The position numbers were made by a program, and so were the translations under genes. The notes under the pieces were generated by a model that searched no databases, was not told where the DNA came from, and saw nothing but the letters and a program-made list of their open reading frames with translations. A stretch of DNA of 64,000 nucleotides from an uncultured Christensenellaceae bacterium (GTDB taxonomy: Bacteria > Bacillota > Clostridia > Christensenellales > UBA3700), in contig CALWHE010000010.1 of assembly GCA_944380295.1 (NCBI GenBank), positions 1-64,000 of the forward strand, given 5' to 3'. The stretch's first letter is position 1, and each line of letters opens with the position of its first letter. Of the stretch, positions 43,357 through 60,784 are shown one piece after another.

Positions 43357-43947
43357 ATGATTCTAACCTTTGACAGTTTGGCGTTACGCTATAAAGATTA
43401 TACCGATGTAAAAGGAAAGATCCGACGCGAAGTGCAATCTGGGAGATTAACGCAAATTTCGCGCGGATTGTATGAAACGGACGCTCATACAGACGGCAAA
43501 TATCTTGCAGGCACAATCTATGGTCCGTCCTATCTTTCTTTCGATTACGCTTTATCTATGTATTCGCTGATTCCGGAAGCGATTTTTCGGACATATACAT
43601 CCGCAACTTTTCAAAAAGGAAAAATGAAACAATACAGCAACGCATTCGGCGTATTCACATACAGAGATGTTCCTGCCGCAGTTTATTGTTTTGGTGTGGA
43701 AATTCGCGAAGAAAATGGTTATTCCTATCAAATTGCCACACCTGAAAAAGCCTTGTGTGATAAACTATACACAATATCCCCCATCGGCTCGATCAAAGCA
43801 TTACGTACATTGATGTTTGAAGATCTGCGTATTGATGAGAATGACTTTTGGCGACTAAACTTGGACGATGTCAAACAGCTTGCATTGCTCTATAAGTCGA
43901 CTAATCTACACTATTTGATAAAATTTATCAAAGGAGAATCCAAATGA
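43357..43947 (+). CDS. AbiEi-family antitoxin-like protein
   Basis: 196 residues. An N-terminal winged-helix (VKGKIRREVQSGRLTQISRGLYET) and the AbiEi core GPSYLSFDYALSMYSLIPE, TYRDVPAAVYCFGV, IATPEKALCDKLYT. AbiEi proteins repress their own operon and neutralise AbiEii toxins. It is the first of three genes, overlapping the next as ATGA. The region from 43200 to 46650 is visibly richer in A and T than its surroundings, suggesting recent arrival. Confidence 0.88.
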   Translation: MILTFDSLALRYKDYTDVKGKIRREVQSGRLTQISRGLYETDAHTDGKYLAGTIYGPSYLSFDYALSMYSLIPEAIFRTYTSATFQKGKMKQYSNAFGVFTYRDVPAAVYCFGVEIREENGYSYQIATPEKALCDKLYTISPIGSIKALRTLMFEDLRIDENDFWRLNLDDVKQLALLYKSTNLHYLIKFIKGESK

Positions 43948-45767
43948 TACCGGAAAAATACAACCCAAATTCATTGAGTGTAAGCGCCATTTTAGGTCTG
44001 ATTTCTTCAGGAGATATTGCCATACCCGAAATTCAAAGACCTTTTGTATGGAAAAAAACGCAAGTCCGCGATTTGTTGGATTCCCTTTATAAGGGATATC
44101 CCACGGGATACTTGATAATCTGGAAAAATCCGAATGTCAAATTGAAGGACGGATCTTTTTCCGCCGGTAAAAAGATTTTAATTGACGGACAACAACGAGT
44201 TACCGCTTTAATGACCGCTATTGCGGGAATTCCTGTTGTGAACAACGAATATAAGAAAGAACGAATCAAAATCGCTTTTAATCCGTTTGAAGCGCTTTCA
44301 ACAGACAAAGAAGCAGAAATTTTTGCAGTTCAGGATCAAAGACATTTAAAAAGTAAAATGTGGATCCCTGATATCGCTGAAGTATTTAAAAATGATTTTT
44401 CCGTCTTTTCATTTATAAATAAATATTGCAGCGAAAACCCGGAAATGGCTCCTGATACACTTGATAAAATCCTAACTAATTTACGTGCAATCGGAAATAG
44501 ACTGGTCGGAGTAATAGAGTTATCCGAAAATTTAGAAATAGATATCGTAACAGATATATTCATCCGTATCAATTCAAAAGGCACCGCGCTAAGCCAAGGC
44601 GATTTCGTTATGTCGAAAATTGCTGCAGACGATGAATTTGGTGGTAACATGTTAAGAAAAGCCATCGATTATTTCGCTCATTTATGCGTTGAGCCTTCAT
44701 TTTACGATCACATAAAGGAAACCGACAAAGATTTTGCGAATACGGAATATCTATCTAAAATTGCGTGGCTTAAAGACGATAACAATAATATTTACGATCC
44801 GGAGTGCGACGATATTCTACGTGTGGCTTTTATGCATATGTATCCGAGAGCAAAACTCGCCGATTTGGTGAATCTGTTGTCCGGACGAGATTTTCAGACA
44901 AGAGAGTATAAAATCGAAATCGCACAAGATACATTCGAAAAATTGAAGCAAGGCGTTCTAAACACAATTAACAAAAATAATTTTAATCAATTTTTACTCG
45001 CTATCAGAGGCGCGGGCTTTGTTTCTCATAAACAAATCAATTCATATATGGCGTTAGATTTTGCTTATGCGTTATATTTAAGATTATCAACAGCCAAAGA
45101 AATACCGATTGGTGAAATAAAAAGGATCGTTCAAAAATGGTATGTTTTATCGGTTTTGACGGGACGATACAGTTCTTCGCCCGAAACTGCGTTTTACAAA
45201 GATATTCGCCAAATTAACGAAATCGGTATAAATAAAACACTTGAAGGAATTGAAGCAGCAACGCTTTCCGATAGCTTTTGGAATGTGAAAGTCGTTCAGG
45301 ATTTGGAATACACCTCCACGATCAATCCTACATATCTTGTTTATTTGGCGGCACAGGTAGCAAGTAACGATAAATCGTTATTATCTAATAATATAGCCGT
45401 GAAAGATTTGATCGAGATTGCAGGAGATGTGCACCACATTTTTCCCAAGGAATATCTTAAATCAAATGGTTTTGAAAAAAACCTATATAATCAAGAAGCA
45501 AATTTTGCTTATTTGGACGCACAAGTCAACAAATCGATTGGTAAAAAAGCTCCTAAGGAATACTTTTCCCAAGCCATTTTGCAATGTGAAACAAAATCGG
45601 CAACATGCGGTTCTATAACCGACATCGACTTGCTTAAAGAAAATCTTGAAGCAAACTGTATTCCTTTTGAAGTAACAAACATGACCTTTGAAGACTACCC
45701 GGACTTTCTTAAACAACGGAGAAAGTTAATGGCTCAAAAAATAAAAAATTTCTATTATAGTTTATAG
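43944..45767 (+). CDS. DUF262 protein with C-terminal HNH motif
   Basis: 607 residues. The N-terminal DUF262 (ParB-like NTPase fold, as in GmrS) shows IPEIQRPFVWKKTQVRDLLDSL at 28-49 and ILIDGQQRVTALM with DGQQR at 81-85. Near the C-terminus GDVHHIFPKEYL (His497, His498), then NQEANFAYLDAQVNKSIGKKAPKEYF, fits a DUF1524-like HNH nuclease. Single-chain DUF262-HNH proteins occur in modification-dependent restriction and other phage defence. It lies between AbiEi and AbiEii, overlapping the first and 12 bases before the second. Confidence 0.88.
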   Translation: MIPEKYNPNSLSVSAILGLISSGDIAIPEIQRPFVWKKTQVRDLLDSLYKGYPTGYLIIWKNPNVKLKDGSFSAGKKILIDGQQRVTALMTAIAGIPVVNNEYKKERIKIAFNPFEALSTDKEAEIFAVQDQRHLKSKMWIPDIAEVFKNDFSVFSFINKYCSENPEMAPDTLDKILTNLRAIGNRLVGVIELSENLEIDIVTDIFIRINSKGTALSQGDFVMSKIAADDEFGGNMLRKAIDYFAHLCVEPSFYDHIKETDKDFANTEYLSKIAWLKDDNNNIYDPECDDILRVAFMHMYPRAKLADLVNLLSGRDFQTREYKIEIAQDTFEKLKQGVLNTINKNNFNQFLLAIRGAGFVSHKQINSYMALDFAYALYLRLSTAKEIPIGEIKRIVQKWYVLSVLTGRYSSSPETAFYKDIRQINEIGINKTLEGIEAATLSDSFWNVKVVQDLEYTSTINPTYLVYLAAQVASNDKSLLSNNIAVKDLIEIAGDVHHIFPKEYLKSNGFEKNLYNQEANFAYLDAQVNKSIGKKAPKEYFSQAILQCETKSATCGSITDIDLLKENLEANCIPFEVTNMTFEDYPDFLKQRRKLMAQKIKNFYYSL

Positions 45768-45779
45768 TGAGGACAATAG

Positions 45780-46646
45780 ATGCAGACCATTTTAAGTCAA
45801 ATGCTGGCCTTATATCACACGCAGTCGCAAAGCGATGAAAAAAATGCGTTGACTGAAGTCATACAGGAAGTTGCATTATGCGGCCTGTCACGTGCGGGCT
45901 TCTTCAAAGAAGCCGCATTTTACGGCGGAACAGCACTTCGTATTTTTTACGGAATTGATCGATTTTCCGAAGATTTGGATTTTTCTCTGATAATGCCCAA
46001 CGCCAATTTTGAACTGAAAAAATACTTTTCAGTCTTAGAGAGAGAACTGCACGCAGTCGGTCTAAACTTTAAGATAGAAGAAAAAGTCAAAACGACTGAC
46101 TCCAATATCAAATCAGCTTTTTTGAAAGGCAATACAAAAGAACACCTTTTAAGCGTTTACAATAACGCTCAAAACGCAACACTCATCAATCCGTCCGAAG
46201 TAATTAAAATCAAGTTTGAGGTCGACATCAATCCTCCGTCTTTTGCAACGTTTGAAACCAAATACCGTCTGCTGCCATCACCCTATCAGGTAAAACTTTA
46301 CGATATGCCCTCGTTGTTCGCAGGAAAACTCCACGCCGTTATCTGCCGTGCGTGGAAAACCCGTGTCAAAGGTCGGGATTTATATGACTATATTTTCTAT
46401 CTCTCACGCAACATCGCAGTAAATATGCCCCATCTGAAAGCACGGCTCGTGGACTCAGGATTTATCGACGAACGCTTTAACCTTACACGCGAAACTCTTA
46501 TTGCTCTGTTAAACGAACGCTTTGCCAAAATCGACTATGAGCAAGCCAAGCAAGATGTGCTCCCTTTCATTAAAGATAAAACAAAGCTGGATATTTGGAG
46601 CAAGGATTTCTTTGTTGAAATAACAAAGACACTTAACATCGTCTAA
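45780..46646 (+). CDS. AbiEii-family nucleotidyltransferase toxin
   Basis: 288 residues. The nucleotidyltransferase signature is FYGGTALRIFYGIDRFSEDLDFSL with Gly49-Gly50-Thr51 and the metal-binding Asp65 and Asp67. Further family blocks are IKIKFEVDINPP and LFAGKLHAVICRAWKTRVKGRDLYDYIFY. AbiEii toxins add nucleotides, probably to tRNA, and stop growth. It is last in the AbiEi / DUF262 / AbiEii operon. Confidence 0.9.
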   Translation: MQTILSQMLALYHTQSQSDEKNALTEVIQEVALCGLSRAGFFKEAAFYGGTALRIFYGIDRFSEDLDFSLIMPNANFELKKYFSVLERELHAVGLNFKIEEKVKTTDSNIKSAFLKGNTKEHLLSVYNNAQNATLINPSEVIKIKFEVDINPPSFATFETKYRLLPSPYQVKLYDMPSLFAGKLHAVICRAWKTRVKGRDLYDYIFYLSRNIAVNMPHLKARLVDSGFIDERFNLTRETLIALLNERFAKIDYEQAKQDVLPFIKDKTKLDIWSKDFFVEITKTLNIV

Positions 46647-48185: not shown

Positions 48186-49766
48186 CTATAAATATTCTAT
48201 CTTTATTTGAGCGTTTCCGTCATCAACTGTTGCTCCGTGTGAAATATCGCTTGTCTTTGGCGCTTCCAAGGAAAGCGTCATCTCTATTTGCCCACTCAAT
48301 GTCGTCCCTTGGATATTTACCGCCCCTATCATCCCGCATGCCACGCCGGAGGACGTTATCTTAACGATCAAATCCACATCGGATATCTTGTTCTTGCCGC
48401 CCGTGATCGTGCCTATCAAGCCGCCGGCTACCGATCTCTCCCCGCTCGATGTTATCTCAACGCTGCCCGTCACGCCGGATATTTCTCCGCCGCTCTCCAT
48501 GCCGGCTATCCCGCCAGTCCCTTCACTCACTCCTTCCGCGGTCATGTTGAGATCAAGCGTTATCCCCGTTATCTTCCCCTTGTTCACTCCGCATATGCCG
48601 CCAAAATAATTTATCGCTGCCGCATGGATATTCCCGCTTATGCTTATGTTTTCCAATGTGCCGAAGTTTACTCCGCATATCGCGCCGAACGCCGTGCCGC
48701 CGTTTTTCTCCTCTTTTGACATATCCGTAACGGCTTGCGCGTTATCCGCTTCCGCTTCTATATGCAGATTTCTTACGATCCCGCGATTTTCCTTGAACAG
48801 CGCTTGGTTTTGCAACCTCACCGTGCCGCCTTTCCCGTCCAATTCGCCCGTGAATACTATATCGCTGCCTGCCAGCAATGCCAGCGCCTGCGCGTTGTTC
48901 ACGATATATTTCGCATCGGGGTTACATCTCAATATCTCTATATCTTCTTCGCTGTTTATCTCTATGATCGTGTCTTCGCCTATCTCTTCCCAGCCCGCAT
49001 AAAGGTGTGTATTTCCGCAGACGCCCTGCCGTTCATACTTGTGCGTGCACTCTTCGTCCGTATACCAGCCCGTAAACAAAAGACCTTTCGCATAACATTG
49101 CGGCAATTCCGGTATATCCCCGTGCTTTATCTCGTCTATATACTCCGTCTGTGGTTCGTTTACATGTAAGGCAATGGTGTATCTCCGCTTATACGCTTCC
49201 AGCCTTAGCTCCGTATCCGCGTTCACTATGATATCGTAATCGCTGTCTGCGGCATACTCCCCCTTTATCTCATACCCTTCCGGCAACAGCTCCTCCACCT
49301 TTTCCATATCCACCGCGGAAGACAGCAATCCCCCTTCCGCGCACTCATATCTTCTTTCTATCTCCGCTCCCTCTTCCAAATCTATCTTCACCACTATCTC
49401 GCACCGCCGCGCATATTTCGCCGTGCATTCCATATCCCCCACGACCACCTCCACGCCTTCCGTTATCTCCCCGGCGGCGTCCCTTACTTCCCATTCCCGG
49501 AACACATATCCCGCATATTCTTTGGGTTCGGGATATTCCAGCGCCGCGCCTTCCTCATAAACCTCGTGCGTGCTTTCTCCGTTCAAAAATATAAAAGTGA
49601 CCGTATACTCTTCCGGCGAGATCTCCGGCGCCTCGGGAACGTCCGGCTGCACGATCGTCTCCTCTTCCCGCTCCGGATCGCCTTCCTCACAGCCGCATAA
49701 AATATAGGGACAGAGACATATAAGCAATATCACCATCCCTATAAATATGCGTTTTATCCGCATCAT
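48186..49766 (-). CDS. Large lipoprotein with Flg_new-type repeats, copy 1
   Basis: 526 residues. Signal peptide with lipobox ILCGC. A Glu/Pro-rich linker is followed by InlB-like (Listeria-Bacteroides, Flg_new) repeats, seen as YTVTFIFLNGEST, FREWEV and LLFTGWYTDEECTHKYERQG, then a GLUG-like beta-solenoid (FGAICGVNFGTLENISISG, FGGICGVNKGKI, GGIAGMESGGEISGV, GGLIGTITGG). It is probably a surface adhesin-type protein. The copy at 56963-58543 differs at only four residues, all near the C-terminus. Confidence 0.88.
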   Translation of the reverse strand: MMRIKRIFIGMVILLICLCPYILCGCEEGDPEREEETIVQPDVPEAPEISPEEYTVTFIFLNGESTHEVYEEGAALEYPEPKEYAGYVFREWEVRDAAGEITEGVEVVVGDMECTAKYARRCEIVVKIDLEEGAEIERRYECAEGGLLSSAVDMEKVEELLPEGYEIKGEYAADSDYDIIVNADTELRLEAYKRRYTIALHVNEPQTEYIDEIKHGDIPELPQCYAKGLLFTGWYTDEECTHKYERQGVCGNTHLYAGWEEIGEDTIIEINSEEDIEILRCNPDAKYIVNNAQALALLAGSDIVFTGELDGKGGTVRLQNQALFKENRGIVRNLHIEAEADNAQAVTDMSKEEKNGGTAFGAICGVNFGTLENISISGNIHAAAINYFGGICGVNKGKITGITLDLNMTAEGVSEGTGGIAGMESGGEISGVTGSVEITSSGERSVAGGLIGTITGGKNKISDVDLIVKITSSGVACGMIGAVNIQGTTLSGQIEMTLSLEAPKTSDISHGATVDDGNAQIKIEYL

Positions 49767-49903: not shown

Positions 49904-50160
49904 TTAAAGAAACACGGATCGGGAGATGCCGGCATCTATTTTTATAGATCGCGCCACACATTTTCCAACACGCTCTTAGAAGCACAGGAGAACCCTAAGA
50001 TCATCCAATTGCTGAAGAAAAATCTTCCGGACGCGGAGACGAGTTTTTGCAAAACATCGCCCGTCTGATGGACGGCTACGGTGTGTCGTCCATAGACGAA
50101 TTGATAAAGACGGTGGACGAAGGAGGCGCCGACCCGAAAAAGAGAAGACGACGCCACTAA
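49904..50160 (+). pseudogene. Possible tyrosine recombinase C-terminal remnant, frameshifted
   Basis: One frame (49904 onward) reads IYFYRSRHTFSNTLLEA and then QENPKIIQLL, which resembles the RHTFATxLLExGxNPKxIQxLL block of phage-type integrases, but the following GH box is missing. Near 50030 the coding potential shifts frame to DEFLQNIARLMDGYG and ends in KKRRRRH at 50160. The strings are short, so the family call is tentative. The position, at one edge of the element whose other edge is tRNA-Thr, fits an integrase relic. Confidence 0.4.
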
Positions 50161-50344
50161 TTTTCAATAAGCCGTCGCGGAAAATGCGGCGGCTTAGGGC
50201 GATTTAATGAGAAGGCTCAGATTTTTCATGAAAAGTGTAATCTAAGAGGCAATATTGTTTTTCCGGAGAATTGAGTTCACTCGTCTACCATTATATCAAT
50301 CTATATCCGCATACGCTATATATGGATATATCTTATCAAATGCC

Positions 50345-50413
50345 TTATGTGAATTCAAGTTCGTGACCATAGTGCAAAAGATTTACGAGCTCTCCATATT
50401 CGGAATCTGTCAT
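50345..50413 (-). pseudogene. Truncated third cassette partner gene
   Basis: 22 codons, MTDSEYGELVNLLHYGHELEFT then TAA, behind a strong GGAGGAAGAAT ribosome site and 24 bases after the preceding stop. It resembles the N-terminal region of the 96-residue partners at 50438-50728 and 51118-51408 (VNEF...L..G.E..), so it looks like the start of a third copy that lost its end. The rest of 50161-50437 holds nothing recognisable. Confidence 0.45.
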
Positions 50414-50437
50414 ATTCTTCCTCCCAAACATTTGTAT

Positions 50438-50728
50438 TCAATCGTCGACCCATTCCATTTCCTGTTCGGCTTGCCAAAACGTCTTGCCGCCCCATATGGG
50501 CGCGGAAAGAAAATCTTTAACGATTTCTTGTTTCCGGTCGTAACTGCATGTCTTTGTCCATAATGGGCTATTCTGCTTAGGCTCCGGTTCCATTTGTTCA
50601 AGTTCCAATGTAAACTCTTCGTTTTTTACCCATCCTTGGATAAAATATTTTACGCCGTGAAACATAAACCACCGCTCGTCACCGTAATAGAGACCGTCTA
50701 CAAATTCATTCACATTGCCGTTAATCAT
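50438..50728 (-). CDS. Cassette partner protein B (unknown function)
   Basis: 96 residues. No known family is recognised. It begins MINGNVNEFVDGLYYGDERWFMFHGVKYFIQGW and ends with the block SAPIWGGKTFWQAEQEMEWVDD. The last part is almost identical to the paralogue at 51118-51408 (about 20 of 23 residues), while the middle differs strongly. It is acidic and soluble. The start overlaps the stop of the MGGRG protein as ATGA, so both are made together. A toxin-immunity or toxin-antitoxin pairing is possible but unproven. Confidence 0.75.
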   Translation of the reverse strand: MINGNVNEFVDGLYYGDERWFMFHGVKYFIQGWVKNEEFTLELEQMEPEPKQNSPLWTKTCSYDRKQEIVKDFLSAPIWGGKTFWQAEQEMEWVDD

Positions 50729-51102
50729 TGTTTTAGCACTCCTTTCAAATATTTTCGGTATCGTCTTAATTCTTCGTCGGTAAGCCGTCTGGCATCAGTT
50801 CTATCAAATTTTCTGTTATACTCATGAACATGCAATACTTTCTCATGCCTGTTACCAGTCAATTTCGGCTCCGGGTGATATGCTATCTCTTTAACAAGAT
50901 AATGATCTTTGTCATATATTCGCATCTCATGGAACGTGCCGTTTGGTTTCAGTTTGATGTATGCCAAGCTCGAATGCGCTTCTTCAGGCAAAGAATGCTT
51001 GCCGTTAATACCTTTCAATACTTTCACGCCTGCTATTTTACCGACTGTTTCGTAACTGAATGCGACGTTTTTGCCGCTTGCAAAAGTTCCTCGTCCGCCC
51101 AT
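50725..51102 (-). CDS. MGGRG-type cassette protein A (unknown function)
   Basis: 125 residues from MGGRGTFASGKNVAF; a second ATG lies one codon before, but the paralogue uses this one with AAGGTGG at the same place. Conserved parts with the paralogue 51405-51782 are MGGRGTFASG, GVKVLxGxNG, EAHSSxAYI, EIAYHPEPKLTG, VLHVHEY and the C-terminal LKGV. Several conserved His and acidic residues (HSS, YHPEP, LHVHEY) could form an active site. Proteins starting MGGRG are often found near phage head genes; no function is known to me. Confidence 0.75.
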   Translation of the reverse strand: MGGRGTFASGKNVAFSYETVGKIAGVKVLKGINGKHSLPEEAHSSLAYIKLKPNGTFHEMRIYDKDHYLVKEIAYHPEPKLTGNRHEKVLHVHEYNRKFDRTDARRLTDEELRRYRKYLKGVLKQ

Positions 51103-51117
51103 CATCTCACCACCTTG

Positions 51118-51408
51118 TCACCAATCGACCCATTCCATTTCCTGTTCGGCTTGCCAAAACGTCTTGCCGTCCCATATGGGGGCGGCATAAAATTTCTCCA
51201 GCAACTTATCCGAAGTATCTGCTGTTTCTTGAAAAACAAATTTAACATGCTCTCCGTTTGTATCCCATTGTGCGATATCATACGAATACACCTCCATGTT
51301 TTTATGGAATAGCATCCCATAAAAGAAGTATTTCTTTCCGTGATATATGACGGCGCATTCTTCATATGTGGTATGATCTAAAAATTCATTGACGTTGTTG
51401 TTTTTCAT
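51118..51408 (-). CDS. Cassette partner protein B', paralogue
   Basis: 96 residues, MKNNNVNEFLDHTTYEECAVIYHGKKYFFYG at the start and AAPIWDGKTFWQAEQEMEWVDW at the end. Same length as the other partner, conserved at both ends and different between. It overlaps its A' gene as ATGA and is 15 bases before the second A gene. DNA in the shared C-terminal segment is nearly identical between copies, suggesting recent exchange. Confidence 0.75.
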   Translation of the reverse strand: MKNNNVNEFLDHTTYEECAVIYHGKKYFFYGMLFHKNMEVYSYDIAQWDTNGEHVKFVFQETADTSDKLLEKFYAAPIWDGKTFWQAEQEMEWVDW

Positions 51409-51782
51409 TGTCCGGGCACTCCTTTAAAGAATTTCTTGTACTTGTTATACTCAGCTGCCGTCAGTAATCTGCTCGAACGATTCTTGAAATCGTTGCGTGG
51501 ATATTCGTGAACATGCAAAACAGGCTTTGCATGTCCTGTGAGTTTTGGTTCCGGATGATATGCAATCTCTAAGGTCAGGTATTTTTCTTTGTCAAATTCT
51601 CGGTACATTTTAAATGTTCCGTCCGGATGCAGTTGTATATATGCGCCGCTCGAATGCGCTTCGCCAGGAAGTCCTTTAACGCCGTTGCTCCCTTCTAGCA
51701 CCTTTACTCCTTCTATTGTTCCAACCGTTCTATACTTAAACGGCACAATATTGCCGCTTGCAAAAGTTCCTCGTCCGCCCAT
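51405..51782 (-). CDS. MGGRG-type cassette protein A', paralogue
   Basis: 125 residues, the same length as the A protein downstream and well over half identical to it. It starts MGGRGTFASGNIVPFKYRTVG; the ATG overlaps the stop of the DUF4417 gene (TAATG) and follows AAAGGTGGTGAG, so the operon is DUF4417-A'-B'-A-B. The function is unknown. Confidence 0.75.
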   Translation of the reverse strand: MGGRGTFASGNIVPFKYRTVGTIEGVKVLEGSNGVKGLPGEAHSSGAYIQLHPDGTFKMYREFDKEKYLTLEIAYHPEPKLTGHAKPVLHVHEYPRNDFKNRSSRLLTAAEYNKYKKFFKGVPGQ

Positions 51783-52399
51783 TATCTCACCACCTTTCTC
51801 GAAGAGAGATAGTCTACAGGAATGATGTTTCCGCGCATTTCGGCAAAAGGGGTGCCGAAGCAGATGATCGCTTGAGGCTCCAGTCTTTCAAGCATAGCGT
51901 CATATCCTCGCATGAACATCAACTTATTCCTCTTGCATCCTATCATACCCACCGCAACAACGGCGTTTTCCTCCACACCGTCAAAGCAAAAATCATATGT
52001 CAGCGCAAGCCCCCAACTTACGGTAGGATAGACCGTAAGTCCGTGCGCCTGCCAATACGCTCCGCACCAGCGGTTTTTTGCCACATTCCCCATCTGCAGC
52101 CAACGAGGCATATCGGCATAGAGAGAATATTCGGGTGTGAGAAGAAACTTGTATTGCGAAAGTTTGCGTAAACTTCTTTGCGGATAGTTATAGATATGCT
52201 CAAAGCGATAATCATCCACAAAAAAGTGCACTCCGCATTCACGATTGTGTTCTTCTCTCGATTTTGTGTCGGAACATGCGATGAGTTTAATATCGTTTAC
52301 GATCGGCTGATACTCGACCATGGGGATGTTCCATTCCCCCGTGCAACGATACTCGTTGCGCAGGAAAGTTTGCTCTTGTCTTGCTTCTTTAGAGTGCAT
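51782..52399 (-). CDS. DUF4417 protein
   Basis: 205 residues from MHSKEARQEQ. DUF4417 proteins are common on phages and integrative elements and have no known activity. Family landmarks are CGVHFFVDDYRFEHIYN, FLLTPEYSLYADMPRWLQMGN, GLTVYPTVSWG, FCFDGVEENAVVAVGMIGCKRN and ICFGTPFAEM. The ATG at 52399 has AAAGGAGGTG seven bases ahead; the GTG at 52408 lies inside that site. It is the first gene of the cassette operon. Palindromes like the repressor operator lie just upstream. Confidence 0.85.
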   Translation of the reverse strand: MHSKEARQEQTFLRNEYRCTGEWNIPMVEYQPIVNDIKLIACSDTKSREEHNRECGVHFFVDDYRFEHIYNYPQRSLRKLSQYKFLLTPEYSLYADMPRWLQMGNVAKNRWCGAYWQAHGLTVYPTVSWGLALTYDFCFDGVEENAVVAVGMIGCKRNKLMFMRGYDAMLERLEPQAIICFGTPFAEMRGNIIPVDYLSSRKVVR

Positions 52400-52422
52400 A
52401 TTTTGCACCTCCTTTTGATAAT

Positions 52423-52455
52423 GTCAACCTTTGGTTGCCGTCAAATTTGTTGACA
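52423..52455. promoter_or_regulatory. Two palindromic operators between DUF4417 and the small RNA
   Basis: TCAACCTTTGGTTG (52424-52437) and GTCAAATTTGTTGAC (52440-52454). The first is the same word, apart from one base of spacing, as TCAACCCTTTGGTTGA (53535-53550) over the repressor promoter. The second overlaps the -35 of the small-RNA promoter. This links the cassette operon and the small RNA to the XRE regulator. Confidence 0.75.
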
Positions 52456-52560
52456 TAAAAGACGGGAGCGTGCTAATATATACTTGTAGCTGTGCCTTGG
52501 CACACGTCCCGAAAGGCTTTGATCCGATTGTTGCAGCAATCTCATCGAAGCTTTTCTTTT
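52450..52560 (+). ncRNA. Predicted small RNA with own promoter and terminator
   Basis: TTGACA (52450-52455), 18 bases, TAATAT (52474-52479) with an extended TGC in front, giving a start near 52486. The RNA would hold hairpin TGTGC-CTTG-GCACA (52491-52504), then a long hairpin GCTTTGAT (52516-52523) / ATCGAAGC (52544-52551) with inner GATTG/CAATC, followed by TTTTCTTTT (52552-52560). About 75 bases. It has no open frame of note. It faces the immA 3-prime end. Confidence 0.6.
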
Positions 52561-52580
52561 ATGTAAAAATTCAAGTTGAT

Positions 52581-53117
52581 TTATTGTTTTGCCTTTTCGC
52601 ACGCCAATGCGCGCAATTGCGCATTTGCGCATTGCAATGATACAACACAACATTCATGTATTTGCTCGGCAGACATTCCTTCTATCAAGTAGGTCGGGGC
52701 AAGCAATTCACCCCCAAAAACGTCAGCCTGCCAATCCGAGTCGCGGTATGCGGGCAACTTCTCGCCGGGAGCTGTCCTGCAATATTCTATTGACGCATTC
52801 CCATGCATAAAGAAATGCCCCACTTCATGAGCAATGGTCAACCGATCGCGTCCGTTACCAGTGCAAGCTCCTTCATATACATCCTCTCTGATGTAGATCT
52901 TTTTTTCATCAGGGATAGCCTTGCCGTGTTGCTTGCCCAGTTCCTCATTTGGTAAAACGGCAAAAGTAAAATCCGTAAATATCTGAGGCATTATTTTTTC
53001 GACAAACCAAATTATGTCAAAATACAGTTCATTGTCAATGTCCAGTGCCCTCCGAATTTTATGAACAAGCGTCCATATCATCTGCCTAGATGCAGGTTTC
53101 ACCGGAATTCCGCTCAT
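52581..53117 (-). CDS. ImmA/IrrE-family metallopeptidase
   Basis: 178 residues. Zinc motif HEVGH at 97-101 in LTIAHEVGHFFMH and the third-ligand region DWQADVFGGELLAP. ImmA-type proteases cleave their partner repressor when a signal such as DNA damage or a mating cue arrives, as in ICEBs1. The start overlaps the XRE gene stop as ATGA, the usual pairing. Confidence 0.93.
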   Translation of the reverse strand: MSGIPVKPASRQMIWTLVHKIRRALDIDNELYFDIIWFVEKIMPQIFTDFTFAVLPNEELGKQHGKAIPDEKKIYIREDVYEGACTGNGRDRLTIAHEVGHFFMHGNASIEYCRTAPGEKLPAYRDSDWQADVFGGELLAPTYLIEGMSAEQIHECCVVSLQCANAQLRALACEKAKQ

Positions 53118-53473
53118 CTATTTACTTCCTTTTGCATTAGTTTTTTGATAGCATCCAGCTGTTCGTCGGACAGATCCTCAAAAGATCGCGCGAAAGATAC
53201 AGCTGTTTTTTTTGCGTCGGGTGACGCATTTTCTAAATCTATGATTACCGCCTTCTCGGATGCGGCAATGGCAGCGTCCAACTCCTCTTCTTGAGAAGGA
53301 GAAAGATGGTATACAGAGCGAATCTTGACATTCCACTCATATGGCATTTTTTTCTTGCCAAGTTCCACCGCAGACAAAAACGATGACGTAACGCCAAGCT
53401 TTTGTGCCATAGTGAAAAGAATTTCGTTGTTATCGATCCTCAACTTTTTGAGGAATTTTCCGACTTCAGTCAT
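53114..53473 (-). CDS. XRE-family repressor (ImmR-like)
   Basis: 119 residues. Helix-turn-helix near the N-terminus: GKFLKKLRIDNNEILFTMAQKLGVTSSFLSAVELGKKKMP. The C-terminal part with DLENASPDAKKTAVSFARSFEDLSDEQLDAIKKLM is likely helical and may be where the protease cuts. It is autoregulated by an operator over its own -35 and should also act at 52424-52454. Confidence 0.92.
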   Translation of the reverse strand: MTEVGKFLKKLRIDNNEILFTMAQKLGVTSSFLSAVELGKKKMPYEWNVKIRSVYHLSPSQEEELDAAIAASEKAVIIDLENASPDAKKTAVSFARSFEDLSDEQLDAIKKLMQKEVNR

Positions 53474-53509
53474 GTTGTATCTTCTCTCCTTGCATTGTTT
53501 TTTACCGAC

Positions 53510-53550
53510 ATTTTAGCACAAGAAAAACCGCTTGTCAACCCTTTGGTTGA
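53510..53550 (-). promoter_or_regulatory. Repressor promoter with operator
   Basis: Minus strand TTGACA (53538-53533), 17 bases, TAAAAT (53515-53510). The perfect inverted repeat TCAACC-CTTT-GGTTGA (53535-53550) overlaps the -35. Confidence 0.82.
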
Positions 53551-53631
53551 AAAAATATACAAAAATGTTAAAATATTACGATGCAGAGTTGACAAACCCA
53601 ATTAGAAATCAATATAGCTACCTACTTAAAG

Positions 53632-53885
53632 TGTTTGCTATTTGTTTGCTATTGCGCTCAAAAACGGGGCAAAAGAAAACAGTGGCGAAAACGCTGTTGA
53701 AAACAAAAAATTTTTCGCCGTCGAAGAACGGTCGTGGCAGTTGTTTGCTATTGTTTGCTATTACGACCGAAAAAGGCAGTTTTTGACCATCTCAGACAGT
53801 CAAAAAAGAGAGGTGATCGAGTCGGTCGCTTGACACCTTGAAAAACGAAGAAAACTCGTAAAAGTGTTTGCTACCGTGTTTGCTA
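53632..53885. repeat. Three pairs of TGTTTGCTA direct repeats
   Basis: The 9-base word lies at 53632, 53643, 53742, 53752, 53865 and 53877: three pairs with 10-12 base spacing, the pairs 110-123 bases apart. There is no gene in 53551-53966. Such direct repeats beside a tRNA resemble the arm-type sites of tyrosine integrases. Confidence 0.6.
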
Positions 53886-53966
53886 CAACTTTTGCTTATA
53901 AGGCGCTCTTGTGGTTTTTCAGCTCTGAAATAAGAGAAAAACCACAATATCTTGTGGTTTCTCGTC

Positions 53967-54250
<284 letters not shown>

Positions 54251-56962: not shown

Positions 56963-58543
56963 CTATAAATATTCTATCTTTATTTGAGCGTTCCTGTCAT
57001 CAACTGTTGCTCCGTGTGAAATATCGTTTGTCTTTTGCGCTTCCAAGGAAAGCGTCATCTCTATTTGCCCGCTCAACGTCGTCCCTTGGATATTTACCGC
57101 CCCTATCATCCCGCATGCCACGCCGGAGGACGTTATCTTAACGGTCAAATCCACATCGGATATCTTGTTCTTGCCGCCCGTGATCGTGCCTATCAAACCG
57201 CCGGCTACCGATCTCTCCCCGCTCGAAGTTATCTCAACGCTGCCCGTCACGCCGGATATTTCTCCGCCGCTCTCCATGCCGGCTATCCCGCCCGTTCCTT
57301 CGCTCACGCCTTCCGCGGTCATGTTGAGATCAAGCGTTATCCCCGTTATCTTCCCCTTGTTCACTCCGCATATGCCGCCAAAATAATTTATCGCTGCCGC
57401 ATGGATATTCCCGCTTATGCTTATGTTTTCCAATGTGCCGAAGTTTACTCCGCATATCGCGCCGAACGCCGTGCCGCCGTTTTTCTCCTCTTTTGACATA
57501 TCCGTAACGGCTTGCGCGTTATCCGCTTCCGCTTCTATATGCAGATTTCTTACGATCCCGCGATTTTCCTTGAACAGCGCTTGGTTTTGCAACCTCACCG
57601 TGCCGCCTTTCCCGTCCAATTCGCCCGTGAATACTATATCGCTGCCTGCCAGCAATGCCAGCGCCTGCGCGTTGTTCACGATATATTTCGCATCGGGGTT
57701 ACATCTCAATATCTCTATATCTTCTTCGCTGTTTATCTCTATGATCGTGTCTTCGCCTATCTCTTCCCAGCCCGCATAAAGGTGTGTATTTCCGCAGACG
57801 CCCTGCCGTTCATACTTGTGCGTGCACTCTTCGTCCGTATACCAGCCCGTAAACAAAAGACCTTTCGCATAACATTGCGGCAATTCCGGTATATCCCCGT
57901 GCTTTATCTCGTCTATATACTCCGTCTGTGGTTCGTTTACATGTAAGGCAATGGTGTATCTCCGCTTATACGCTTCCAGCCTTAGCTCCGTATCCGCGTT
58001 CACTATGATATCGTAATCGCTGTCTGCGGCATACTCCCCCTTTATCTCATACCCTTCCGGCAACAGCTCCTCCACCTTTTCCATATCCACCGCGGAAGAC
58101 AGCAATCCCCCTTCCGCGCACTCATATCTTCTTTCTATCTCCGCTCCCTCTTCCAAATCTATCTTCACCACTATCTCGCACCGCCGCGCATATTTCGCCG
58201 TGCATTCCATATCCCCCACGACCACCTCCACGCCTTCCGTTATCTCCCCGGCGGCGTCCCTTACTTCCCATTCCCGGAACACATATCCCGCATATTCTTT
58301 GGGTTCGGGATATTCCAGCGCCGCGCCTTCCTCATAAACCTCGTGCGTGCTTTCTCCGTTCAAAAATATAAAAGTGACCGTATACTCTTCCGGCGAGATC
58401 TCCGGCGCCTCGGGAACGTCCGGCTGCACGATCGTCTCCTCTTCCCGCTCCGGATCGCCTTCCTCACAGCCGCATAAAATATAGGGACAGAGACATATAA
58501 GCAATATCACCATCCCTATAAATATGCGTTTTATCCGCATCAT
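56963..58543 (-). CDS. Large lipoprotein with Flg_new-type repeats, copy 2
   Basis: 526 residues, like the copy at 48186-49766: lipobox ILCGC, InlB-like repeats, GLUG-like solenoid. Residue differences are few and only in the last 70 or so: DVDLTVK for DVDLIVK, AQKTND for APKTSD, DDRNA for DDGNA. DNA similarity continues about 90 bases upstream of the start (to about 58640), so the promoter is duplicated too. An IS30 remnant borders it on the right. Confidence 0.88.
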   Translation of the reverse strand: MMRIKRIFIGMVILLICLCPYILCGCEEGDPEREEETIVQPDVPEAPEISPEEYTVTFIFLNGESTHEVYEEGAALEYPEPKEYAGYVFREWEVRDAAGEITEGVEVVVGDMECTAKYARRCEIVVKIDLEEGAEIERRYECAEGGLLSSAVDMEKVEELLPEGYEIKGEYAADSDYDIIVNADTELRLEAYKRRYTIALHVNEPQTEYIDEIKHGDIPELPQCYAKGLLFTGWYTDEECTHKYERQGVCGNTHLYAGWEEIGEDTIIEINSEEDIEILRCNPDAKYIVNNAQALALLAGSDIVFTGELDGKGGTVRLQNQALFKENRGIVRNLHIEAEADNAQAVTDMSKEEKNGGTAFGAICGVNFGTLENISISGNIHAAAINYFGGICGVNKGKITGITLDLNMTAEGVSEGTGGIAGMESGGEISGVTGSVEITSSGERSVAGGLIGTITGGKNKISDVDLTVKITSSGVACGMIGAVNIQGTTLSGQIEMTLSLEAQKTNDISHGATVDDRNAQIKIEYL

Positions 58544-60175: not shown

Positions 60176-60262
60176 GCAGCCGCCGCCAACCGCAAAACAA
60201 GCAAAAACCATCCGCTCGCCACGCGGATGGCTTTTTTGTTTGCACCCGACGAACGAACAACC

Positions 60263-60784
60263 GCCTTTCAGCGAACGGACCGCTATTGCTTGAATAAATA
60301 GAAAAACTATGTTTCCGTTCGCGTGCAGCCCGTGTTATGCTCGCCATATCACGGTGGTGCACGCCCTGCGCTTCCGTTATAAGCACAAGAGGCCGTCCTG
60401 CAACCTCTTTTGCTTATGGCACAAGCGGAGGGATTCGCCTTTCAGCGAACGGACCGCTATTGCTTGAATAAATAGAAAAACTATGTTTCCGTTCGCGTGC
60501 AGCCCGTGTTATGCTCGCCATATCACGGTGGTGCACGCCCTGCGCTTCCGTTATAAGCACAAGAGGCCGTCCTGCAACCTCTTTTGCTTATGGCACAAGC
60601 GGAGGGATTCGCCTTTCAGCGAAGGGACCGTTATTGCTTGAATAAATAGAAAAACCTTGCTTCCGTTCGCGTGCAGCCCGTGTTATGCGCTCGCGCATAT
60701 CACGGGAGTGCACGCCCTCCGCCTCCGCCATAGCAAAAAAGGACCGCTATGCGACCCTTTTTTGCTATGGCGGAGGCGGAGGGA
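60263..60784. repeat. 174-base tandem repeat, three units, beside tRNA-Ser
   Basis: Units begin at 60263, 60437 and 60611 with GCCTTTCAGCGAA. Each holds hairpin CGAACGG/CCGTTCG, hairpin CCCGTG...CACGG (in the third unit CCCGTGTTATGCGC/GCGCATATCACGGG, changed on both arms) and a long hairpin ending CGGAGGGATTCG, which is the start of the tRNA-Ser T-arm on the complement. No protein is encoded. Confidence 0.8.
60715..60783 (-). terminator. 28-bp perfect inverted repeat overlapping tRNA-Ser 3-prime end
   Basis: Arms 60715-60742 and 60756-60783, loop of 13. The right arm contains the tRNA-Ser T-arm end, acceptor and CCA. The inner part CAAAAAAGG/CCTTTTTTG gives a T6 run on the minus strand, so it may also terminate the tRNA transcript. 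Confidence 0.7.

Follow-up and report, generated by a model that had tools for sequence, protein, structure and literature searches.

The first 64,000 nucleotides (nt) of contig CALWHE010000010.1 (GenBank assembly GCA_944380295.1), from an uncultured Christensenellaceae bacterium and here called the window, carry a run of minus-strand genes (53473-50438) in which genes for an XRE-family repressor and an ImmA-like metallopeptidase are followed, across a 170-nt intergenic gap, by a gene for a DUF4417 protein and by two tandem pairs of small genes, A1-B1 and A2-B2. On balance, this locus is probably a compact, mobile, stand-alone polymorphic toxin-immunity cassette, with DUF4417 as the constant partner and a predicted small RNA as a second lock. 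Its gene order, the constancy of DUF4417, the exchange of toxin domains and the arrays of immunity genes were observed repeatedly in other genomes. A single recurring unit thereby brings together a small RNA that had not been catalogued, many small toxins and the XRE-ImmA and Fic genes, and DUF4417, known until now by its domain number or by an untested annotation as a "nuclease," gains a likely context. The cassette comprises the following features (window coordinates, strand, description).

53967-54042, minus: tRNA-Thr(GGT), upstream border of the cassette
53510-53546, minus: predicted XRE promoter, TTGACA-17-TGnTAAAAT, with the palindrome TCAACCCTTTGGTTGA (53531-53546) covering the -35 hexamer
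53114-53473, minus: XRE-family repressor, 119 amino acids (aa), first regulator gene (HTH_19, E 6e-4; PADLOC capH, E 1e-3)
52581-53117, minus: ImmA/IrrE-like metallopeptidase, 178 aa, with HEVGH (Peptidase_M78, E 4e-5, over the cut-off; PADLOC capP, E 7.5e-11)
52482-52560, plus: predicted small RNA, ~75 nt (covariance-model match, 54.9 bits; fold z, -4.7)
52450-52479, plus: predicted small-RNA promoter, TTGACA-18-TGnTAATAT
52424-52454, unstranded: candidate operator region, TCAACCTTTGGTTG (52424-52437) and the palindrome GTCAAATTTGTTGAC (52440-52454)
51782-52399, minus: DUF4417 protein, 205 aa, ATG at 52399, Shine-Dalgarno (SD) sequence AAAGGAGG (PF14386, E 2e-52; phrog_940, phrog_8680)
51405-51782, minus: A1, MGGRG-tagged toxin candidate, 125 aa, starting within the DUF4417 stop
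51118-51408, minus: B1, predicted A1 immunity protein, 96 aa, acidic, ATGA overlap with A1
50725-51105, minus: A2, second MGGRG toxin candidate, 125-126 aa, 61% identical to A1
50438-50728, minus: B2, predicted A2 immunity protein, 96 aa, 45% identical to B1, ATGA overlap with A2

The cassette begins just downstream of the tRNA-Thr(GGT) gene. An earlier note on this DNA had described the XRE, ImmA and DUF4417 genes and the two tandem A-B pairs, all of which we found on the minus strand at or near where it had placed them, and the gene overlaps fit the co-translation that it proposed for each pair (1 nt, TAATG, for DUF4417/A1; 4 nt, ATGA, for each A/B pair; XRE and ImmA likewise overlap by 4 nt). 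The parts that it assigned to the span 49904-53966 are thus present, but the left end of the cassette lies closer to 50438 than to 49904.

Recurrence of the cassette and exchange of the toxin

With A as the query, a search of 84,980 species genomes yielded 79 contig loci (given below as L numbers), which span several phyla: besides Clostridia, there are contigs with the names Succinivibrio, Fibrobacter, Selenomonadaceae and Opitutales. Nearly all of these loci have DUF4417 immediately before A, and B comes directly after A in 76 to 78 of the 84 sources counted; the junctions from DUF4417 through A to B consist of ATGA or a single nucleotide, with the ATGA overlap present in 38 A/B pairs. Where enough upstream DNA was available (68 loci), the gene preceding DUF4417 encoded ImmA in 47 cases and Fic in 8, with something else there in 13. 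The search that the earlier note had proposed, for DUF4417 beside MGGRG genes and XRE-ImmA, thus finds the same gene order in tens of genomes. Among whole genomes of the class, A was present in 7 of 391 and DUF4417 in 29 of 291. No families of phage structural or recombinase genes recurred in the neighborhoods of A, and scans of viral contigs and plasmids revealed no close A homologues. The record L084 (MT835546.1), although labeled "Bacteriophage sp.," is a fragment of a bacterial chromosome that carries the module together with phosphoglucomutase, ComM, PSP1 and similar genes. The seemingly long A proteins of L058 and L061 proved to be due to runs of N and were dismissed.

Neither A nor B matched any family in Pfam, PHROG, NCBIfam or the PDB, but the slot that A occupies is informative. 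Different small proteins found there (~70 to 190 aa) share an N-terminal tag, MGxGxxGxFGNTxGS, and some of them contain Ntox50 (E, 1e-27, 7e-28 and 3e-20) or Ntox37 (E, 3e-6 and 9e-8), all above the Pfam cut-off. Where a DUF4417 locus lacks A, a small protein of this kind with a Gly-rich tag, e.g., MGAGTGGNFGNTRGS, is encoded at the DUF4417 stop codon in roughly 22 of 30 cases judged by eye. Both forms can coexist: L017 has, in succession, XRE, ImmA, RNA, DUF4417, A, B, RNA, a second DUF4417, an Ntox50 toxin and small open reading frames (ORFs), two of them paralogous. Tandem A-B pairs and B arrays occur in L014, L020, L018, L042 and L046, with nine B genes in L020, and B genes without a toxin were seen in L020, L005 and L043. 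Variable toxin domains thus stand behind a constant element, DUF4417 plus the MGxG tag, and genes that by position would confer immunity follow directly downstream and form arrays. The presence of Ntox50 and Ntox37 in A's slot, behind the shared tag, points to a polymorphic toxin-immunity cassette of which DUF4417 is the constant component. The earlier note had considered an inducible toxin, defense or transfer function plausible for a cargo unlike a normal phage lysis or head set; an inducible-looking toxin cassette gains support from the recurring gene order, from these domains and from the lack of recurring phage genes.

Judging by its position, A would represent a new type of toxin and B is likely to be its immunity protein, A2-B2 being a duplicated second pair. 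The AlphaFold model of A (predicted local distance difference test [pLDDT] score, 85) depicts a soluble-looking, folded protein without a structural match in the PDB. Homology between A and the toxin of L103 was considered and not supported.

A predicted small RNA beside DUF4417

The strand opposite the operon carries, upstream of DUF4417, TTGACA-17/18-TGnTATAAT promoters, with a hairpin and a U-run ~75 nt further on; the predicted transcript consists of a 5' hairpin, a linker and an intrinsic terminator hairpin with its U-run. Over 34 loci, the mean best promoter score was 10.7, versus 8.5 (standard deviation, 0.7) in shuffles and 8.6 on the sense strand. The terminator covaries strongly, with 93 both-side cell changes against 30 expected (standard deviation, 4.6; 0 of 500 shuffles) and far lower values in slid controls. 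Rfam gave no match to the RNA, even at an E value of 1. A covariance model built from it, R1, was searched against the 0.99 Mb of fetched loci, where nearly all of its 49 matches are antisense and just upstream of DUF4417, and then against 148 whole genomes, where it matched five times, once per genome and always beside DUF4417; four of these five lie outside the training set and accompany other toxins. R1 is found with both the XRE-ImmA and the Fic forms of the module, and it had no match at the phage DUF4417 loci tested. The small RNA anticipated in the earlier note, here at ~52482-52560 on the plus strand, is therefore a conserved sequence element specific to the DUF4417 neighborhood and, with its promoter and covarying terminator, is predicted to be transcribed.

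For the first 44 nt of the RNA, predicted pairing with the DUF4417 start region is stronger within a locus (-15.8 kcal/mol) than between loci (-13.4 kcal/mol; z, -4.3; P < 0.0001). The difference held after dereplication (P = 0.004) and in earlier versions of the test (P = 0.0015 and 0.005), a reversed-RNA control was negative (P = 0.23), and the start regions of A and B and the ORF interior gave no significant result. This preference for the cognate DUF4417 start suggests that the small RNA silences DUF4417 translation. An initial view that the intergenic region forms a riboswitch or attenuator on the sense strand (P1-P2-P3, including an anti-SD element) was set aside because the -10 and -35 hexamers and the U-run lie on the opposite strand; the same complementarity may have a role on the sense strand as well.

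A second RNA class, with a CTACCAA hairpin and CTCCAAAYAAG, replaces R1 in 16 loci and has no Rfam match at the gathering threshold. In L012, L019, L022, L031, L034 and others, it appears upstream of DUF4417 as a CTACCAA-loop hairpin, GGGGATACGAATRCYCTCCAAAYAAG and a hairpin, GGGG..AAAGGAGGCCCC, that encloses the ribosome-binding site. In some loci, mini-ORFs seen by eye precede the RNA, as they might in leader-peptide attenuation; a very short ORF with a strong SD sequence (MIV*, MIVKNKTH*, MLVKMKTH* and similar) sits at the end of the regulator gene and overlaps the RNA terminator on the other strand (e.g., L022, L031, L047, L063, L075 and L081).

Regulators and operators

An XRE homologue occupies the same position in more than 20 A loci by phmmer, and a second, divergent XRE cluster does so in ~26 more. 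Its placement in one operon with a HExxH peptidase (HEVGH in the window) is that of an XRE-ImmA switch of the CapH/CapP kind. In L016, L022, L031, L046, L047, L063, L073 and L081, a Fic gene (E, 6e-23) takes the place of XRE-ImmA before the same RNA-DUF4417-A-B module.

As the earlier note had reported, a palindrome lies over the -35 hexamer of the XRE promoter, and related words precede DUF4417. Of these, GTCAAATTTGTTGAC covers the -35 of the small RNA. Each operator word is expected 0.05 to 0.11 times per shuffled 64-kb window, and the 14-mer word occurs once in the 1.75-Mb genome. The second palindrome before DUF4417 is thus present as described, but the word itself is not identical at the two promoters: with half-site spacers of 4 versus 3 nt, the copies are near-copies. 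Seven relatives from the window's subclade (L005, L017, L018, L026, L030, L035 and L083) retain CAACCAAAGGTTG ahead of the DUF4417 start, and related AACCAAA palindromes lie at the XRE -35 of L026, L021 and L057. A pair of near-copies, one at the XRE -35 and one upstream of DUF4417, can be seen in the window and L026 alone, with the one-nucleotide spacer difference in both. In 47 loci, the longest word shared between the two upstream regions averaged 8.7 nt, compared with 8.5 nt in mismatched loci. Control of the whole locus by a single switch through a shared predicted operator, as had been proposed, is accordingly plausible locally but not as a general feature.

DUF4417 and its phage relatives

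The AlphaFold model of DUF4417 (pLDDT, 89) is that of a soluble-looking, folded protein. Its best PDB matches by Foldseek are the TIM barrels of tRNA-guanine transglycosylase, and these are weak (E, 0.05 to 0.2; template modeling score up to 0.44); an enzyme of the transglycosylase or DpdA type lacks profile support (hhalign E, 0.61), leaving a weak fold lead only. Among the papers searched, the three that name DUF4417 do not place it in a toxin system. In our reading, DUF4417 would handle the toxin tag as a chaperone, adaptor or loader. In L106, L108 and L109, small-genome members of the same order, DUF4417 is followed by an HNH-type protein and not by a tagged toxin.

DUF4417 is also present in 474 of the phage records searched. 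Roseburia phage Jekyll encodes, in a row, DUF4417, a GGRGGSSG protein, an MGGRGASSG protein and the terminase; in Streptococcus phage phiNJ2, DUF4417 precedes an A-like protein (HTHHGY) that lies next to the terminase. The earlier note had allowed that homologues might turn out to be solely phage head-region genes without the regulator. This is not the case, since packaging-module homologues exist but are not the only form.

The proximity of phage copies to terminase and portal, together with the precedent of MuF toxins (Jamet et al. 2017, PMC5576092), makes loading into particles a possible route of delivery. A bolder proposal is that DUF4417 and the MGxG tag form a previously undescribed route by which minimal polymorphic toxins are trafficked or loaded, perhaps into phage particles, with the small RNA as an obligatory lock; this we consider doubtful. 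If true, it would add a delivery route to the eight or more polymorphic-toxin modes listed in 2012 (Zhang et al., PMC3482391). How such toxins, equipped with a tag of 15 residues but no domain for secretion, get to their targets, and whether DUF4417 is their carrier, can now be put to the test.

Interpretation of the locus

We envisage that XRE would repress its own promoter and, in the window's subclade, probably the intergenic promoters too, and that ImmA would remove XRE in response to stress, for example DNA damage. The opposite-strand RNA would serve as a second lock: it would pair with the ribosome-binding and start region of DUF4417 and restrain translation of the coupled genes, in which DUF4417 would be translated together with a small, exchangeable, Gly-rich-tagged toxin (A1, MGGRG) and then with the immunity protein B1. 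Once both locks open, DUF4417 and toxin would be produced, with B shielding the producer.

Several observations weigh against this reading. By Pfam, no trafficking domain was found, the short Gly-rich tag being all that precedes the toxin, and there is no secretion signal; about a quarter of the A loci have neither RNA class; the complementarity between RNA and mRNA is moderate, and the window's pair (-15.0 kcal/mol) is not the best among the loci; and the 47-locus comparison led us to reject a shared XRE operator as a general rule, as it is not conserved outside the subclade. Moreover, A resembles in fold, with confidence, only portions of phage proteins (E, 1e-5 to 2e-4), a minor capsid protein among them, which, together with the lack of a named family, means that in phages A might have a structural or accessory role. 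This resemblance, along with the gene orders beside terminase in Jekyll and phiNJ2, would fit the view that the locus is a remnant or exaptation of a phage packaging-region set, with DUF4417 and the MGGRG protein in a structural and not a toxic role. We regard that as very improbable: the chromosomal modules have a regulator, an RNA and candidate immunity genes and no recurring phage genes, R1 is missing from the phage loci tested and close A homologues from viral contigs, the sole "phage" record with A is the chromosomal fragment L084, and Ntox50 and Ntox37 fill A's slot.

The absence of a secretion or delivery gene from the module and the small, cytoplasmic-looking proteins could instead speak for a toxin-antitoxin or abortive-infection system, in which A would poison its own cell when DUF4417, XRE-ImmA or Fic senses phage or damage, with B as a classical antitoxin and no delivery at all. 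The CapP/CapH-like pair, as in the cyclic oligonucleotide-based antiphage signaling system (CBASS), the AbiEi-GmrSD-AbiEii set ~4 kb away and a sporadic distribution typical of defense islands (A in 7 of 391 genomes) are in line with this; extra B genes without a toxin and domain exchange behind a constant tag are hallmarks of polymorphic toxins acting between cells, and the constancy of DUF4417 would be left unexplained, so that we find such a system unlikely. Finally, the toxin-immunity cassette may be as we describe it but its RNA not an antisense repressor: the RNA might be bound by protein (DUF4417 or the toxin, as in type III systems), or the complementarity might stem from sequence shared between the promoter spacer and the start region. 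The terminator loop is unusually constrained (UG-N6/7-CA), the duplex energies are moderate, and the promoter spacer resembles the DUF4417 SD region; on the other hand, the own-versus-other test was significant solely for the DUF4417 start region and its reversed-RNA control was negative. We see this as a real possibility, short of the antisense role that we prefer.

The toxin-immunity cassette shares with polymorphic toxin systems (PMC3482391) and phage-linked MuF toxins (PMC5576092) the exchangeable Ntox50 and Ntox37 domains, the small downstream immunity genes and their arrays. MuF toxins and phage phiC2 are further known sources of Ntox50. It differs in having no MuF domain (none was found in the module) or trafficking domain, in that a separate, constant DUF4417 precedes the toxin, and in that the module also comprises a small RNA of its own together with XRE-ImmA or Fic. 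An XRE repressor gene overlapping a HExxH metallopeptidase gene is likewise seen in CapH/CapP of CBASS and ImmR/ImmA of ICEBs1, but here it is a toxin cassette that follows the pair, in place of a CBASS operon or integrative and conjugative element, and Fic can substitute for the pair. Like the antisense RNAs of type I toxin-antitoxin systems, the small RNA would have its own promoter and terminator on the strand opposite a toxin operon and would pair with a start region; unlike them, it lies upstream and does not overlap the coding region, its predicted pairing being with the DUF4417 start. The toxin and its companion are, moreover, soluble-looking and not small hydrophobic peptides, and a candidate protein immunity factor is present. 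Phage DUF4417 and ParB-DUF4417 proteins (PMC12704722; Streptococcus phages, PMC8066415) contain the same domain, and the phage copies precede MGGRG-type proteins beside terminase, but those examined come without RNA, XRE-ImmA or immunity genes, and some are fused to ParB.

Other features of the window

Downstream of B2, the stretch 49904-50160 contains a broken reading frame unrelated to the cassette, and the broken frame or frames at 49942-50167 possibly represent a decayed gene at its end. On the other side, at 54001-54229, a segment comprising a piece of the tRNA-Thr gene and 5' flanking sequence is present in three tandem copies with a 101-bp period, just upstream of the intact tRNA. Two near-identical, directly oriented genes for 526-aa lipoprotein-like proteins with Listeria-Bacteroides repeats (48186-49766 and 56963-58543, ~8.8 kb apart) bracket the cassette and mutM, and recombination between them could delete both. 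Tandem repeats of 174 bp (two perfect and a partial third), including short ORFs, occupy 60262-60688. At 43357-46646 on the plus strand, in low-GC DNA, AbiEi, a GmrSD/DUF262-type protein and AbiEii are encoded in one run, a GmrSD-like gene between two AbiE genes being an unusual defense arrangement.

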